Below, piece by piece: positions 14,475 to 36,753 of a stretch of 37,197 nucleotides of DNA. The stretch comes from Clostridiaceae bacterium. GTDB lineage: Bacteria; Bacillota; Clostridia; Saccharofermentanales; Saccharofermentanaceae. Both the position numbers and the translations under genes were made by a program. Location: contig DUPM01000099.1 in assembly GCA_012838315.1 (NCBI GenBank), positions 1-37,197 of the forward strand, in the 5' to 3' direction. How positions within the stretch are numbered: the stretch's first letter is position 1; each line of letters opens with the position of its first letter. Below the pieces are notes generated by a model. That model did no database searches and had not been told where the DNA came from. It saw nothing but the letters and a program-made list of their open reading frames with translations.

Positions 14475-14522
14475 ATAATAAAGAAGTATTTCGGTTGCGA
14501 CACGTGAATGGAGGAGTATCAA

Positions 14523-14945
14523 ATGGCACTTTTTGATCCAAAGACCAAGACCATCGCTCAACTTCAGAAGAGCATTGATGATAAAAATGCATCCATAGTT
14601 AGTTATTTTGATGAAATTGGACGACTCTACTATGGTCAGTACAAAGACCCGGCAGCGGACGTTTCTAAAGACATTAATGCAAGATGCGACGCTATTTCGA
14701 AGCTCTATATCGATATTGAGGCACAAAAACTGAAGATTCTTTTTGAAAAAGGACTGAAGCTTTGCGTGAACTGTAAGAAAGAAAATCCTTTGGAGCATGC
14801 GTTTTGCGCTTCTTGCGGTAATAAATTTCCTGAAGGATCCGATAAGCATGTGGACATTCCTAATGCAGAATGTACAAATTGCCCGGATGGCACAAACGGA
14901 CCGGAAGTTGAAGCGGTTCCCGAAGAAACAGCTAAGACAGAATAA
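14523..14945 (+). CDS. Small zinc-ribbon protein of unknown function
   Basis: A 140-residue protein. Residues 1-80 are predicted helical and probably coiled-coil, from the Lys/Asp/Gln pattern. A zinc ribbon follows with Cys81, Cys84, Cys95 and Cys98 (CVNC...CASCG), then an acidic, Pro/Glu-rich tail with another pair of cysteines. ATG at 14523 is chosen because GGAGGAG lies just upstream; the in-frame ATG at 14508 falls before that site. The gene is a single unit between clear terminators. Similar helical-plus-ribbon proteins are common in Clostridia, but I know no assigned function and none is offered. Confidence 0.75.
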   Translation: MALFDPKTKTIAQLQKSIDDKNASIVSYFDEIGRLYYGQYKDPAADVSKDINARCDAISKLYIDIEAQKLKILFEKGLKLCVNCKKENPLEHAFCASCGNKFPEGSDKHVDIPNAECTNCPDGTNGPEVEAVPEETAKTE

Positions 14946-14965
14946 ATGCAATTCGATTATTAAGA

Positions 14966-15001
14966 AGTGCCGATGGTCTATAGACCACCGGCGCTTTTTT
15001 T
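14966..15001 (+). terminator. Rho-independent terminator after the zinc-ribbon gene
   Basis: A stem of about 13 bp with a G-U pair, GTGCCGATGGTCT (from 14967) with AGACCACCGGCGC, sits around a short TA-rich loop and runs into seven T residues. Confidence 0.93.
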
Positions 15002-15080
15002 ATTATAGCATAAATTGTTTTTTTTCGCGTTCGACTTTGTTACAAGTTTTTTCATATCCTTCAGATATAATTGATTTAAC

Positions 15081-15195
15081 AAAGAGCCAATTGAGTGATC
15101 GGAAGGCCACTTGAAAGACCTCCTCGAGTACCATCCGAGACACTCAAAAGACTCTTTAGAAATGAATTTCTGACATTGTTACCTATGGGTAATGT
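15081..15195 (+). ncRNA. Structured RNA leader upstream of hpf, candidate raiA RNA motif
   Basis: This 250-base gap before hpf has no ORF but several nested complementary segments. AAAGAG (15081-15086) pairs with CTCTTT (15152-15157), TTGAGTG (15091-15097) with CACTCAA (15141-15147), and TCGGA (15099-15103) with TCCGA (15134-15138). These make one long arm of 18 bp with small internal loops and an apical AGG/CCT hairpin. Two more hairpins follow: AGAAAT/ATTTCT (15158-15171) and an arm at 15173-15195. A TATAAT at 15066-15071 could start the transcript, though no good -35 is visible. The raiA RNA motif is a known structured RNA found upstream of raiA/hpf in Bacillota. Position and structure fit, but I cannot verify the consensus by eye. 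Confidence 0.5.
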
Positions 15196-15243
15196 ATCGG
15201 AGATAGCATTTCGAAAGAACTAAAGCTGGAAGGATGTGATTCT

Positions 15244-15792
15244 ATGAAGATCACGACTCAGGGAAATGGTATCCAAATTGGAAACAGACTCGAAGAGAAG
15301 ATCGAATCCAAGCTTGCGAAGTTTGAAAAGCATTTTGGGGAAGAGGGTTCGTTCAATATCAAGATTCACCCAGAGCGAGAGCTGAAAAAGGTTGAGCTCA
15401 CACTCAAAATTCAGAACAGAGTCTACAGGGCTGAGGCGCGTGACGAAGAAATCTTAAACGCCGTCGATCGAACGATTGATAAGCTCGAGTCTCAGATTCG
15501 TCGCCAGAAGACACGAATCGAAAAGCAGAAGAAGGATTACTCTTTTGTTAGGGACTACCTTCGAGATGTTTTACCCGAGTCGGATGACATCGATGATGCC
15601 GAATATGAAGAGAAGAAAATCATCAAGAGAAAAAGCTTTGAGCTTATCCCCATGGAGACTGATGATGCCATCTTGCAAATGGAAATGCTCGGACACAGCT
15701 TTTTGGTGTATCTCAATGCCGAAACCGGAAATGTCTGTGTCATCTATAAGCGCAAAGACGGACATTACGGTCTGATAGAGCCAACCTACTGA
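15244..15792 (+). CDS. hpf: Long-form ribosome hibernation promoting factor
   Basis: A 182-residue HPF/RaiA. The N-terminal domain (1 to about 100) has the beta-alpha-beta-beta-beta-alpha pattern that binds the 30S decoding region and blocks mRNA and tRNA. A charged linker follows, and a C-terminal dimerisation domain (about 125-182) starts near IKRKSFELIPM and ends with MLGHSFLVYLNAETG and VIYKRKDGHYGLIEP. Long HPF forms 100S ribosome dimers in stationary phase without RMF. GGAAGGATGTG precedes the ATG. The gene stands alone, with the structured leader above and a terminator below, implying growth-phase control through transcription or the leader. Confidence 0.96.
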   Translation: MKITTQGNGIQIGNRLEEKIESKLAKFEKHFGEEGSFNIKIHPERELKKVELTLKIQNRVYRAEARDEEILNAVDRTIDKLESQIRRQKTRIEKQKKDYSFVRDYLRDVLPESDDIDDAEYEEKKIIKRKSFELIPMETDDAILQMEMLGHSFLVYLNAETGNVCVIYKRKDGHYGLIEPTY

Positions 15793-15822
15793 TTTTCAAA
15801 TTTTGTTCCGTCTTTTGTGCGA

Positions 15823-15855
15823 AGAGGCTGTCCGTTCGGATAGCCTCTTGTTTTT
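15823..15855 (+). terminator. Rho-independent terminator after hpf
   Basis: AGAGGCTGTCCG (15823-15834) and CGGATAGCCTCT (15837-15848) form a 12-bp stem with one G-U pair and a two-base apical gap, so the top pair probably opens. The 3' arm is followed by TGTTTTT. Confidence 0.88.
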
Positions 15856-27721: not shown

Positions 27722-29233
27722 ATGAAATTTATCAGCACGAGAGGATATTCGGAAAAATTCGATTCCGCTCAAGTGATTAAGATGGGCATTGCCCCGGACG
27801 GAGGACTTTTCGTCCCTGAATCCATTCCTGTTATAACTCAAGATGATATCAACGAGATGATGTTGATGACCTACCCGCAATTGGCAGCTAAGGTCATTTC
27901 GATGTACCTGACAGATTATACAAAGCAAGAACTTCAAGAGTATTGTGATTTGGCATATTCGGAAGAGAAGTTTGGAGAAGACCCACTTCCTCTTGTTTTA
28001 CTCAACAAATACAATCCGAGAGAGTATATTCTGGAGCTGTGGCACGGCCCGACATGCGCGTTTAAGGATGTCGCATTGCAATTGTTACCGTACTTGATGA
28101 CTGCTGCCGTTCGAAAAACGGGAGAAAACAGAAAAGTGGTCATACTCACAGCAACATCCGGTGATACCGGAAAAGCGGCTCTCGAAGGATTCAAGGATGT
28201 TCCAGGTACAGAGGTCATCGTATTTTATCCGGTCGACGGTGTATCCGATGCGCAGAGGCTTCAGATGGTAACCACAGAAGGAGACAATGTGCATGTCGTC
28301 GCTGTTGATGGCTGTTTTGATGATGCGCAAACGGGTGTCAAGAGCATTTTCTCAGATGAAGATTTGAATCAGGAACTTCACAATCAGGGGGTCATGCTTT
28401 CGTCTGCAAACTCCATTAATTGGGGAAGATTGGTGCCACAGATTGCGTATTATGTATATTCATATGTTTCTCTTTTAAAAAACGAGGCCATCGAGCCCGG
28501 CGAGAAGGTTAATTTTGTTGTTCCTACAGGCAATTTCGGCAATATTTTAGCAGCTTGGTTTGCTAAAGAGATGGGCATACCGGTTCATAAGCTGATATGT
28601 GCGTCCAACAAAAATAAAGTATTGTCCGATTTTTTCAGATCGGGTACATATGACCGTAACCGTCCATTTTATAAAACCAATTCGCCTTCGATGGATATAT
28701 TAATTTCTTCAAATCTCGAAAGACTTTTATTTAAAGTTTCCGGGGGGCAGGCAGAACGCCTGCTGGATTGGATGAAGGAACTTACCGAGACTGGTAAATA
28801 TGCCGTAGACAACCAGACCCTCCGAATCCTTCAAAGCGCATTTGTTGGTGGTTTCGCAGACGAAATTGGCATAAACAAAACAATTAGAGATGTGTACGAT
28901 CGTTGTGATCATGTGGTCGATACGCATACGGCCGTCGGGTTTAATGTTTACAGCAGGTACTACCAGAGGTCCGGCGATGAGACAAAGACAATATTTGTCT
29001 CAACAGCGAGCCCATACAAATTTACAGCATCAGTAAGCGACGCACTATTCGGCGCGGGATACAGTAAGGGTCGATCTCATGACGTTCTGATGCGAGAGCT
29101 TAGCGAAGAGAGCGGGATGCCGATTCCCGAGAGCATCTCAAACTTGTCCGCAAAAGCTGTGTTGCATGACAAAACTGTTGCAAAAGATCAAATGAAATCC
29201 GCCGTCATGTCGATTATTGCGGGTGACTCTTGA
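27722..29233 (+). CDS. thrC: Threonine synthase
   Basis: A 503-residue PLP enzyme converting O-phosphohomoserine to threonine. It is the long, class I (E. coli/yeast-like) form: the N-terminus STRGY, then GIAPDGGLFVPE; the PLP lysine Lys115 in ELWHGPTCAFKDVALQ; the phosphate-binding TATSGDTGKAAL; and NSINWGRLVPQIAYY. CGGAGG lies 7 bases before the ATG. No thrB or hom is adjacent. The stop region overlaps the convergent padR gene by 20 bases, with no separate hairpin visible. It is the last gene of a long plus-strand run. Confidence 0.96.
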   Translation: MKFISTRGYSEKFDSAQVIKMGIAPDGGLFVPESIPVITQDDINEMMLMTYPQLAAKVISMYLTDYTKQELQEYCDLAYSEEKFGEDPLPLVLLNKYNPREYILELWHGPTCAFKDVALQLLPYLMTAAVRKTGENRKVVILTATSGDTGKAALEGFKDVPGTEVIVFYPVDGVSDAQRLQMVTTEGDNVHVVAVDGCFDDAQTGVKSIFSDEDLNQELHNQGVMLSSANSINWGRLVPQIAYYVYSYVSLLKNEAIEPGEKVNFVVPTGNFGNILAAWFAKEMGIPVHKLICASNKNKVLSDFFRSGTYDRNRPFYKTNSPSMDILISSNLERLLFKVSGGQAERLLDWMKELTETGKYAVDNQTLRILQSAFVGGFADEIGINKTIRDVYDRCDHVVDTHTAVGFNVYSRYYQRSGDETKTIFVSTASPYKFTASVSDALFGAGYSKGRSHDVLMRELSEESGMPIPESISNLSAKAVLHDKTVAKDQMKSAVMSIIAGDS

Positions 29234-29579
29234 GGATGCTTTGCACGCCTTTACTCAGGTGGTTGTAATCATCCTTCAGCGCTTTTAAGTAGACGTGCCC
29301 GGCATCGGTAATTCGGTAATAACGACGAAGCCGGTTGTCTTCGGAGACCTTTTTGTCGTGTTCTTCGATATATCCGAATTTCTGAAGACGATAAATGGCC
29401 GGGTAAAGCGTTGCTACTTTGTAGTGCCCTTTGCTGAGGATCTCGATGTCCTGAATCATTTGATAGACGTACATGGTTTTTTCAGACAAGAGATGCAAAA
29501 TAAGCATTTCGACAGTTGCCTTTTTGAAATTGTCTCTCATGCCCTCGGCTGTGCCGCTTTTTGGATTCGTCTGATTCAT
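29214..29579 (-). CDS. PadR family transcriptional regulator
   Basis: A 121-residue winged-helix regulator. The N-terminal domain reads MLILHLLSEKTMYVYQMIQDI, then the recognition-helix region HYKVATLYPAIYRLQKFGYI and the wing RLRRYYRITDAG, followed by a C-terminal dimerisation helix. The start at 29579 follows GGGAGG; the frame extends 5 codons further but that would bypass the site. PadR proteins usually repress a membrane or efflux gene next to them. Here the neighbours are convergent thrC and same-strand prfC, so no obvious target is adjacent. The gap to prfC holds dyads such as TAATAG-N8-CTATTA (29681-29700), which could be its operator or end prfC transcription. Confidence 0.9.
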   Translation of the reverse strand: MNQTNPKSGTAEGMRDNFKKATVEMLILHLLSEKTMYVYQMIQDIEILSKGHYKVATLYPAIYRLQKFGYIEEHDKKVSEDNRLRRYYRITDAGHVYLKALKDDYNHLSKGVQSILKSHPQ

Positions 29580-29731
29580 AACTATACCTCCCACTATATG
29601 TGTTGGACGGTATTCAGAGGCATCTTCATTGTAGCAAGAATGTTTTGCAAAAATATGTATAAGTGTTTACCAAATAAGTGTAATAGGAATATATCTATTA
29701 ATACCTATAAATTTTTGCTGAAAAGTATCAA

Positions 29732-31518: not shown

Positions 31519-32322
31519 ATGTCAGAGAGAGTTGATAACAAACTCGCGGTCTTGATTGATGCCGACAATATATCAGCAAGTTACATTAAACCAATGATTG
31601 AAGAGCTAGCACGTTACGGAAATCCGACAATCAAAAGGATTTACGGAGATTGGACAAAACCGAATCTGGGTGCGTGGAAAAATCTGCTCTTGGATTACGC
31701 ATTCCAACCTGTGCAACAGTTCGGTTATACCACCGGAAAGAACGCGACGGACTCTGCCATGATTATCGATGCGATGGATATTTTGTACTCCGAGAAAGTC
31801 GACGGTTTTTGCATCGTGTCTAGTGATAGCGACTTTACAAGGCTTGCGACCAGACTTCGTGAAGCGGGAAAGACCGTTTACGGCATCGGAGAAAAGAAAA
31901 CGCCGACTCCTTTTATCGCTGCTTGTGACCGATTTATTTATTTGGAAATTCTGGGGGTACATGCGCCGGTTGATTCCAAGCCGGACAAAAGGGCTTCTGC
32001 GAAGGGCTCTCAAAGCCAGGCAAAGCCGGGCAAAAAATCATTGGATTCTCCGAGGCCCCTCAACGGAGTAGATAATGAAACCAAGAAATTGGTGCTCACA
32101 TCCATCCAGGATCTTGCGGATGATTCGGGATGGGCATTTTTGGGAGAGGTTGGCGCGCTGATTATTAAAAAGATGCCGTCTTTTGATTCCAGAAACTATG
32201 GATTTTCGAAGCTCTCGACAATGATAAGAGCCATGGAAGAAATTGAAATTCAGGAACGTATCAATGAAAAAAACCCGGCTGTGACGCTCATATATATTCG
32301 CGTTAAGGGGGATGAGTCTTAA
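31519..32322 (+). CDS. NYN-domain nuclease-like protein with C-terminal OST-HTH/LOTUS domain
   Basis: A 267-residue protein. The N-terminal NYN (PIN-like, LabA/DUF88) domain has the acidic set expected for Mg-dependent RNA cleavage: Asp14 and Asp16 in LIDADN, Asp78 in NATDSAMIIDAMD, and Asp103/Asp105 in VSSDSDFT. A basic, Lys/Ser-rich linker (about 155-180) leads to an OST-HTH/LOTUS-type winged helix (about 190-267; SIQDLADDSGWAFLGEVGAL, YGFSKLSTMI). LOTUS domains bind RNA, including G-rich RNA, so an RNA-processing or decay role is likely, but the target is unknown. ACGAGGTG precedes the ATG. The stop shares one base with malQ (TAATG). Confidence 0.88.
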   Translation: MSERVDNKLAVLIDADNISASYIKPMIEELARYGNPTIKRIYGDWTKPNLGAWKNLLLDYAFQPVQQFGYTTGKNATDSAMIIDAMDILYSEKVDGFCIVSSDSDFTRLATRLREAGKTVYGIGEKKTPTPFIAACDRFIYLEILGVHAPVDSKPDKRASAKGSQSQAKPGKKSLDSPRPLNGVDNETKKLVLTSIQDLADDSGWAFLGEVGALIIKKMPSFDSRNYGFSKLSTMIRAMEEIEIQERINEKNPAVTLIYIRVKGDES

Positions 32323-36304: not shown

Positions 36305-36339
36305 AAGTATGTACTTAATTATTGTACATACTTTTTTTG
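36305..36339 (+). terminator. Hairpin after the AEC gene; terminator and possible PadR operator
   Basis: AAGTATGTAC (36305-36314) and GTACATACTT (36324-36333) form a perfect 10-bp stem with a 9-base loop, followed by a T-run. This can end the operon. The core ATGTAC-N9-GTACAT also looks like a PadR operator (ATGT...ACAT dyads). A related AGTATATAC lies 11 bases downstream, next to the padR promoter. Confidence 0.7.
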
Positions 36340-36349
36340 AGTATATACC

Positions 36350-36378
36350 TTGACAGACATAGTAACTCGAAATTGAAT
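36350..36378 (+). promoter_or_regulatory. Promoter of the padR-HAAS pair
   Basis: A consensus TTGACA (36350-36355), a 17-base spacer and TTGAAT (36373-36378), 39 bases before the padR ATG. It sits beside the ATGTAC/GTACAT dyad, which suggests autoregulation. Confidence 0.6.
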
Positions 36379-36417
36379 GTAACTAGAAAAACTAAGTACA
36401 ACGGAAAGGAGAAACAT

Positions 36418-36753
36418 ATGTCTATTACGTCTGACTTGCTTCGAGGACACACGGATACGATTATTCTCAGGCGCTTGATGCACCAGGACAGTTACGGCTA
36501 TGAGATTAACAAATATATACAAGAAAAGACCAATGGCGAGTATGAGCTTAAAGAGGCTACTTTGTATTCGGCTTTTCGAAGATTAGAAGAAATCGGGTGG
36601 ATATCGTCATATTGGGGTGATGAGACTACCGGCGCTAGACGACGATATTACACGGTCACTTCTACGGGAAGAAAAGCATATGAGCAGAACATGAAGGACT
36701 GGGAACAGGCAAAGTATTTAATTGATGCACTGATTAAGGAGGGTGGAGAATGA
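36418..36753 (+). CDS. PadR family transcriptional regulator (HAAS-associated)
   Basis: A 111-residue winged-helix protein: DTIILRRLMHQDSYGYEINKY, then recognition helix region ELKEATLYSAFRRLEEIGWI and wing GARRRYYTVTSTGRKAY, with a short C-terminal helix. The start at 36418 follows AAAGGAG; the frame is open back to 36322 but that part covers the promoter. Its stop overlaps the start of the next gene (ATGA), the standard arrangement of PadR with a HAAS/DUF1700-type membrane partner, whose expression it normally controls. Differs clearly in sequence from the PadR at 29.2-29.6 kb. Confidence 0.92.
   Translation: MSITSDLLRGHTDTIILRRLMHQDSYGYEINKYIQEKTNGEYELKEATLYSAFRRLEEIGWISSYWGDETTGARRRYYTVTSTGRKAYEQNMKDWEQAKYLIDALIKEGGE

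Follow-up and report, generated by a model that had tools for sequence, protein, structure and literature searches.

The window analyzed here, a stretch of 37,197 nucleotides, lies on a contig of the draft genome G000 (2.1 Mb, 163 contigs). It carries on its plus strand hpf (15244-15792), which encodes a long-form hibernation promoting factor (HPF) of 182 amino acids with matches to the Pfam families PF02482 (E 6e-17) and PF16321 (E 7e-26). A terminator scan located an intrinsic terminator of 12 pairs plus a T-rich tail 3' of the gene (15822-15849, plus strand), so hpf is probably transcribed as a single gene. Between gapA and hpf, a small protein encoded at 14508-14945 has a double-zinc-ribbon match slightly under the Pfam cut-off. 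Elsewhere in the window, a protein encoded at 31519-32322 combines a NYN nuclease domain with an OST-HTH/LOTUS domain and likely acts on RNA, and two PadR-family regulators are encoded at 29214-29594 (minus strand) and 36322-36753 (plus strand).

The predicted hpf promoter (15038-15071, plus strand) consists of a TGTTAC box (15038-15043) and, exactly 22 bases further on, a TATAAT -10 box (15066-15071); a promoter scan found neither a consensus -35 nor a consensus sigma-70 pair at this site. The element GTTAC recurs at the same 22-base spacing from the -10 box in 31 of the 83 family hpf leaders described below, and at a 21-base spacing in the hpf promoters of two relatives from another family. 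Counting seven bases from TATAAT places the predicted +1 near 15078 and predicts a 5' leader of 166 nt (15078-15243, plus strand) up to the ATG.

This leader is folded. The stretch 15078-15195 has a minimum free energy of -35.4 kcal/mol against a mean of -21.5 for the 200 dinucleotide shuffles that served as the null (z -4.1), none of which was as stable, and the entire leader plus start (15078-15260) likewise gives a z of -4.1. The structure comprises two arms on the plus strand. In the 5' arm, P1 (15081-15157; z -5.3 folded alone), the helices AAAGAG (15081-15086)/CTCTTT (15152-15157), TTGAGTG/CACTCAA, and TCGGA/TCCGA are stacked, and the 6-, 7-, and 5-bp helices that the sequence-only reading had described as one arm are thus present. 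The second arm, P2 (15159-15212; z -3.6 alone), has a closing stem GAAATG/CATTTC followed by ATTTCTGA/TCGGAGAT and an apical hairpin. Two further hairpins had been described here; their pairing holds, but in the full leader both belong to the longer arm P2. An end at 15195, as first drawn, cuts P2, whose 3' strand reaches 15212, and the leader probably spans about 15078 to 15243.

Several other identities of the leader were considered. A scan of the plus strand from 15000 to 15243 found no terminator-like site, and a transcription attenuator or a riboswitch with a terminator was rejected, as no terminator hairpin plus T run lies between the leader and hpf. A frame of 105 codons (14797-15114) extends into the folded stretch, but it overlaps another gene and does not count as a sign of coding. 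A leader peptide was also discarded: the TTG-started frame of 20 codons seen by eye behind GGAAGG in P1 is missing from the congener. Nor is the leader a dispersed element, being present only once in its genome.

The position of the leader upstream of hpf/raiA had led to the proposal that it is a candidate raiA RNA, a motif that certain Clostridia carry upstream of hpf/raiA. The Rfam covariance model RF03072 (209 positions; membership cut-off, 101.3 bits) matches nothing in the window at the gathering threshold and nothing at E<=10 around the leader, and it gave 0 matches in 29 genomes, namely, the window's own plus related ones from the same family and order. As a positive control, the same model detects raiA in 25 of 148 Clostridia genomes. 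It scores 140 to 186 bits at three control loci retrieved through hpf, where raiA was confirmed near hpf, and raiA and hpf lie about 2 kb or less apart in several raiA-positive Clostridia genomes. Moreover, the raiA RNA motif has eight helices and two pseudoknots (PMC11751092) and, in Clostridium acetobutylicum, acts in trans (as cited in PMC11477304), whereas the secondary structure predicted for our leader with a pseudoknot-free model is limited to two simple arms that reach up to the Shine-Dalgarno (SD) site, unlike the 209-position fold. Since RF03072 gave no match while its positive controls worked, we reject the raiA reading at the hpf locus, and membership of the leader in this family can practically be dismissed. 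The raiA RNA, common elsewhere in Clostridia, was found in no searched genome of the window's family and order. Other Rfam families gave only chance matches, far under cut-off and mostly at the upstream terminator, and no Rfam family matched the relatives' hpf leaders.

The comparison with these relatives, Clostridia MAGs labeled Saccharofermentans, Mageeibacillus, and similar, proved more informative. The hpf gene is present in 58/58 genomes searched, to which we added 80 loci from a second collection that overlaps the first in some of its genomes; removal of duplicates left 83 distinct hpf leaders with a recognizable -10 box from the family, which is Saccharofermentanaceae judging by these labels. 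All but two of them are 42 to 63 nt long, the exceptions being those of the window (166 nt) and of its congener G001 (157 nt). In nearly all of the 83, a hairpin starts at the predicted +1 to +3, and it is built from about 34 different stem sequences, among them GTGGAC..GTCCAC, GTGAAC..GTTCAC, GTAGAC..GTCTAC, ATGAAC..GTTCAT, AAAGGT..GCCTTT, AAGGGA..TCCCTT, and AGGATG..AATCCT. A hairpin of at least 5 bp at +1/+2 was found for 29 of 35 distinct hpf stems versus 10 of 54 control leaders (Fisher p 3e-9), the controls being few: similarly processed leaders of genes other than hpf, taken from two genomes with about 20 contigs sampled in each. When the first 30 nt were shuffled, with one count per stem, the combined p was 4e-15 (Fisher's method), a value that is over-optimistic because the family leaders are related by descent. 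Many of the hairpins in g2 are small and weak (-2.5 to -4 kcal/mol). Among other Clostridia outside the order, 6 of 20 hpf leaders have such a hairpin, which is not above background, and we therefore do not regard it as a class-wide hpf feature. Within the family, the 5' hairpin is well supported as a conserved RNA feature of hpf mRNAs.

Covariation in related genomes, proposed earlier as a check on the leader's structure, was obtained for the 5' hairpin of the genus g4. The 15 distinct g4 leaders could be aligned with MAFFT nearly without gaps, and 98.9% of the cells in the stem are paired, compared with 91.0% after shuffling. Three of the six pairs have changed on both sides (GC to AU, CG to UA), and the covariation score of 0.389 (0.219 when shuffled) was reached by 0 of 500 shuffles. 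Taken alone, the count of doubly changed pairs was matched by 45 of 500 shuffles, so we place more weight on controls in which the partner was slid by 1 to 3 columns, which gave zero double changes, and on the fact that other genera have many stems of unrelated sequence. U-G wobbles are tolerated in the g4 stem, as expected of RNA. Judging from this alignment, compensatory change is clear in one genus, g4. The same data bear on the idea that the inverted repeat serves as an operator in the DNA for a transcription factor and forms no RNA hairpin. Its location at the predicted start point and the second conserved box, TGTTAC, 22 bases upstream of the -10 box, would suit an operator, but some 34 half-site sequences in one family, with both sides changing together, and G-U pairs, which are not symmetric in DNA, make this explanation very unlikely.

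Among the genomes compared, the long leader, of about 160 nt, occurs in only two, those of the window and of the one congener included, G001. The two agree almost completely in the promoter, in AACAAAGAG, in CTCTTT(A/G)GAAATGAATTTCTGACAT, and in the final 30 bases. The base of P1, AAAGAG/CTCTTT, is identical in both genomes, so the covariation found in g4 does not extend to P1 itself, and the interior of the arm (about 62 to 65 nt) gives no confident alignment. In G001, the whole P1 arm has a z of -1.9, and its interior alone (z +0.6) folds no better than shuffles. As for P2, its first 18 bases (GAAATGAATTTCTGACAT) are identical in both congeners, and in G001 the arm (z -3.4) has a 3' strand that has diverged yet still pairs. 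Given that P2 lies at the position of the relatives' only leader hairpin, beside the conserved AAGAAC.AAAGCYGGAAGG, it is likely, on these positional grounds, the counterpart of the family hairpin, with P1 as a genus-specific addition. P1 could be neutral, either newly inserted or a rapidly evolving spacer, devoid of its own function and added to the functional hairpin P2; its restriction to the genus, an interior that cannot be aligned between the two members, and the poor folding of the congener's interior would agree with this. That the AAAGAG/CTCTTT stem at the base has been kept, as has the distance to the -10 box, despite the changed interior, together with the z of -5.3 of the window's arm, renders neutrality improbable, and we infer that P1 is functional.

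Directly before the ATG of hpf lies an extended SD site, GGAAGGATGTGATT (15228-15241, plus strand), which is complementary to the usual 16S 3' tail over almost its full length. We assume that this usual tail, which may differ from the genome's own, applies here, and the predicted duplex then reaches -19.2 kcal/mol. With the assumed tail, the median duplex energy is -17.3 kcal/mol for the family hpf leaders versus -9.5 for the 54 control leaders, and 83/83 family leaders but 5.6% of the controls have a duplex of -14 kcal/mol or below. The coding start of hpf contains GATCAC (within 15228-15255), a copy of the 16S tail sequence that could pair with GTGAT. A hairpin GUGAU/AUCAC at the start codon, nearly invariant in the family by eye, is not kept in other families and is more simply regarded as part of the extended SD. 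We also discarded an anti-SD loop: P1 has ACCUCC in its apical loop, but pairing between the arm and the SD does not exceed that of shuffled arms, and the motif is missing in the congener.

It is possible, albeit unlikely, that the leader acts through translational control, the hairpin and the SD competing for pairing so that HPF output is set by leader folding. Many of the g2 leaders have a hairpin whose 3' strand can pair with the leader's own SD (CCUUUU with GGAAGG, or AUCCUU with AAGGAU), and the minimum-energy fold selects this hairpin-strand/SD pairing; the leader of lrtA, discussed below, is in addition described as hampering translation (PMC4956104). In the window and its congener, however, an SD-masking switch finds no support, the arm-SD duplex being no stronger than with shuffled arms (p 0.45 and 0.89, respectively), and the predicted fold leaves the window's SD about 67% unpaired. 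Furthermore, the g4, g5, and g3 leaders have, by eye, no anti-SD strand in their hairpin. At the g2 loci, including L029, L123, and L025, the complementarity between hairpin and SD may represent a translational switch particular to g2.

A large and stable structure on the gene for a ribosome factor could also be a regulatory RNA whose P1/P2 arms sense a protein or ligand (e.g., HPF or idle 30S subunits) in autogenous control, and the identity of the first 18 bases of P2 in the two congeners would fit a sensor. We consider it improbable all the same, as no loop or bulge sequence is conserved across relatives, the interior of P1 is wholly different in the one congener compared, and neither a terminator-like nor an SD-masking expression platform was detected. 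A broader and equally speculative version, to which we give little credence, is that the family's 5'-end package (start-point hairpin, SD duplex of 13 to 14 bp, and promoter box) enables HPF synthesis at ribosome shutdown, the enlarged two-arm leader sensing the state of ribosomes or HPF.

The explanation we favor, at a probability of roughly 0.5, is that a sequence-independent 5'-terminal hairpin stabilizes the hpf mRNA and that this leader has been enlarged in the window's genus. The hpf transcript of the family would begin with a stem-loop at, or at most about 3 nt from, its predicted 5' end. Closed into a helix, that end would be poorly accessible to RppH-type pyrophosphohydrolases and to 5' end-dependent nucleases (RNase J, perhaps RNase Y), and the hpf message could outlast the fall in transcription when growth stops, while its unusually strong and mostly open SD would keep it translated. 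The window's genus would have gained an extra 5' arm, P1, ahead of P2, bringing the leader to about 160 nt. For 5' end-dependent decay to be blocked physically, the 5' end has to stay paired and in place but is free to vary in sequence, and this is the pattern seen in the roughly 34 stems and in the compensatory changes of g4, P1 excepted; the helices would start within a few nucleotides of the transcript 5' end if the start predicted from TATAAT is right. The sequence-only reading had offered, next to raiA, a separate kind of leader controlling the synthesis of the hibernation factor. The leader is indeed distinct, with a hairpin found family-wide at the predicted 5' end and compensatory changes, and control of HPF synthesis, through protection from decay and a benefit in stationary phase, is what we infer from it. 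The timing of hibernation-factor synthesis while translation closes down is poorly known in Clostridia, and a start hairpin kept by pairing rather than by sequence suggests that hpf is controlled through mRNA lifetime.

There are precedents for parts of this proposal. In Bacillus subtilis, mRNA is stabilized by a hairpin located at its 5' end or close to it, and RppH favors single-stranded 5' ends (PMC3997798); the hpf hairpin resembles these elements as a sequence-independent helix at or near the 5' end that would guard against 5' end-dependent decay, but differs in that its role is deduced from comparison only, in that it recurs on one gene family-wide, and in its expansion to two arms in one genus. 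The leader of the hpf homolog lrtA in Synechocystis (312 nt) stabilizes its transcript in the dark and is described as hampering translation (PMC4956104). Compared by description and not by sequence, both are long structured 5' leaders on an HPF-family gene, whereas the lrtA leader is longer and dark-dependent and restrains translation, and the SD of the window is largely open. Decay of the mRNA also partly sets hpf expression in Staphylococcus aureus, yet the main transcript there has a leader of only 38 nt, and the nuclease shown, YhaM, works 3' to 5' (PMC11347170). Finally, long 5'-terminal arms that are unrelated in sequence also occur in the hpf leaders L048 and L049 (about -25 kcal/mol) and L050 (-30.8 kcal/mol), from other families of the order, so the lengthening of the leader may have occurred more than once.
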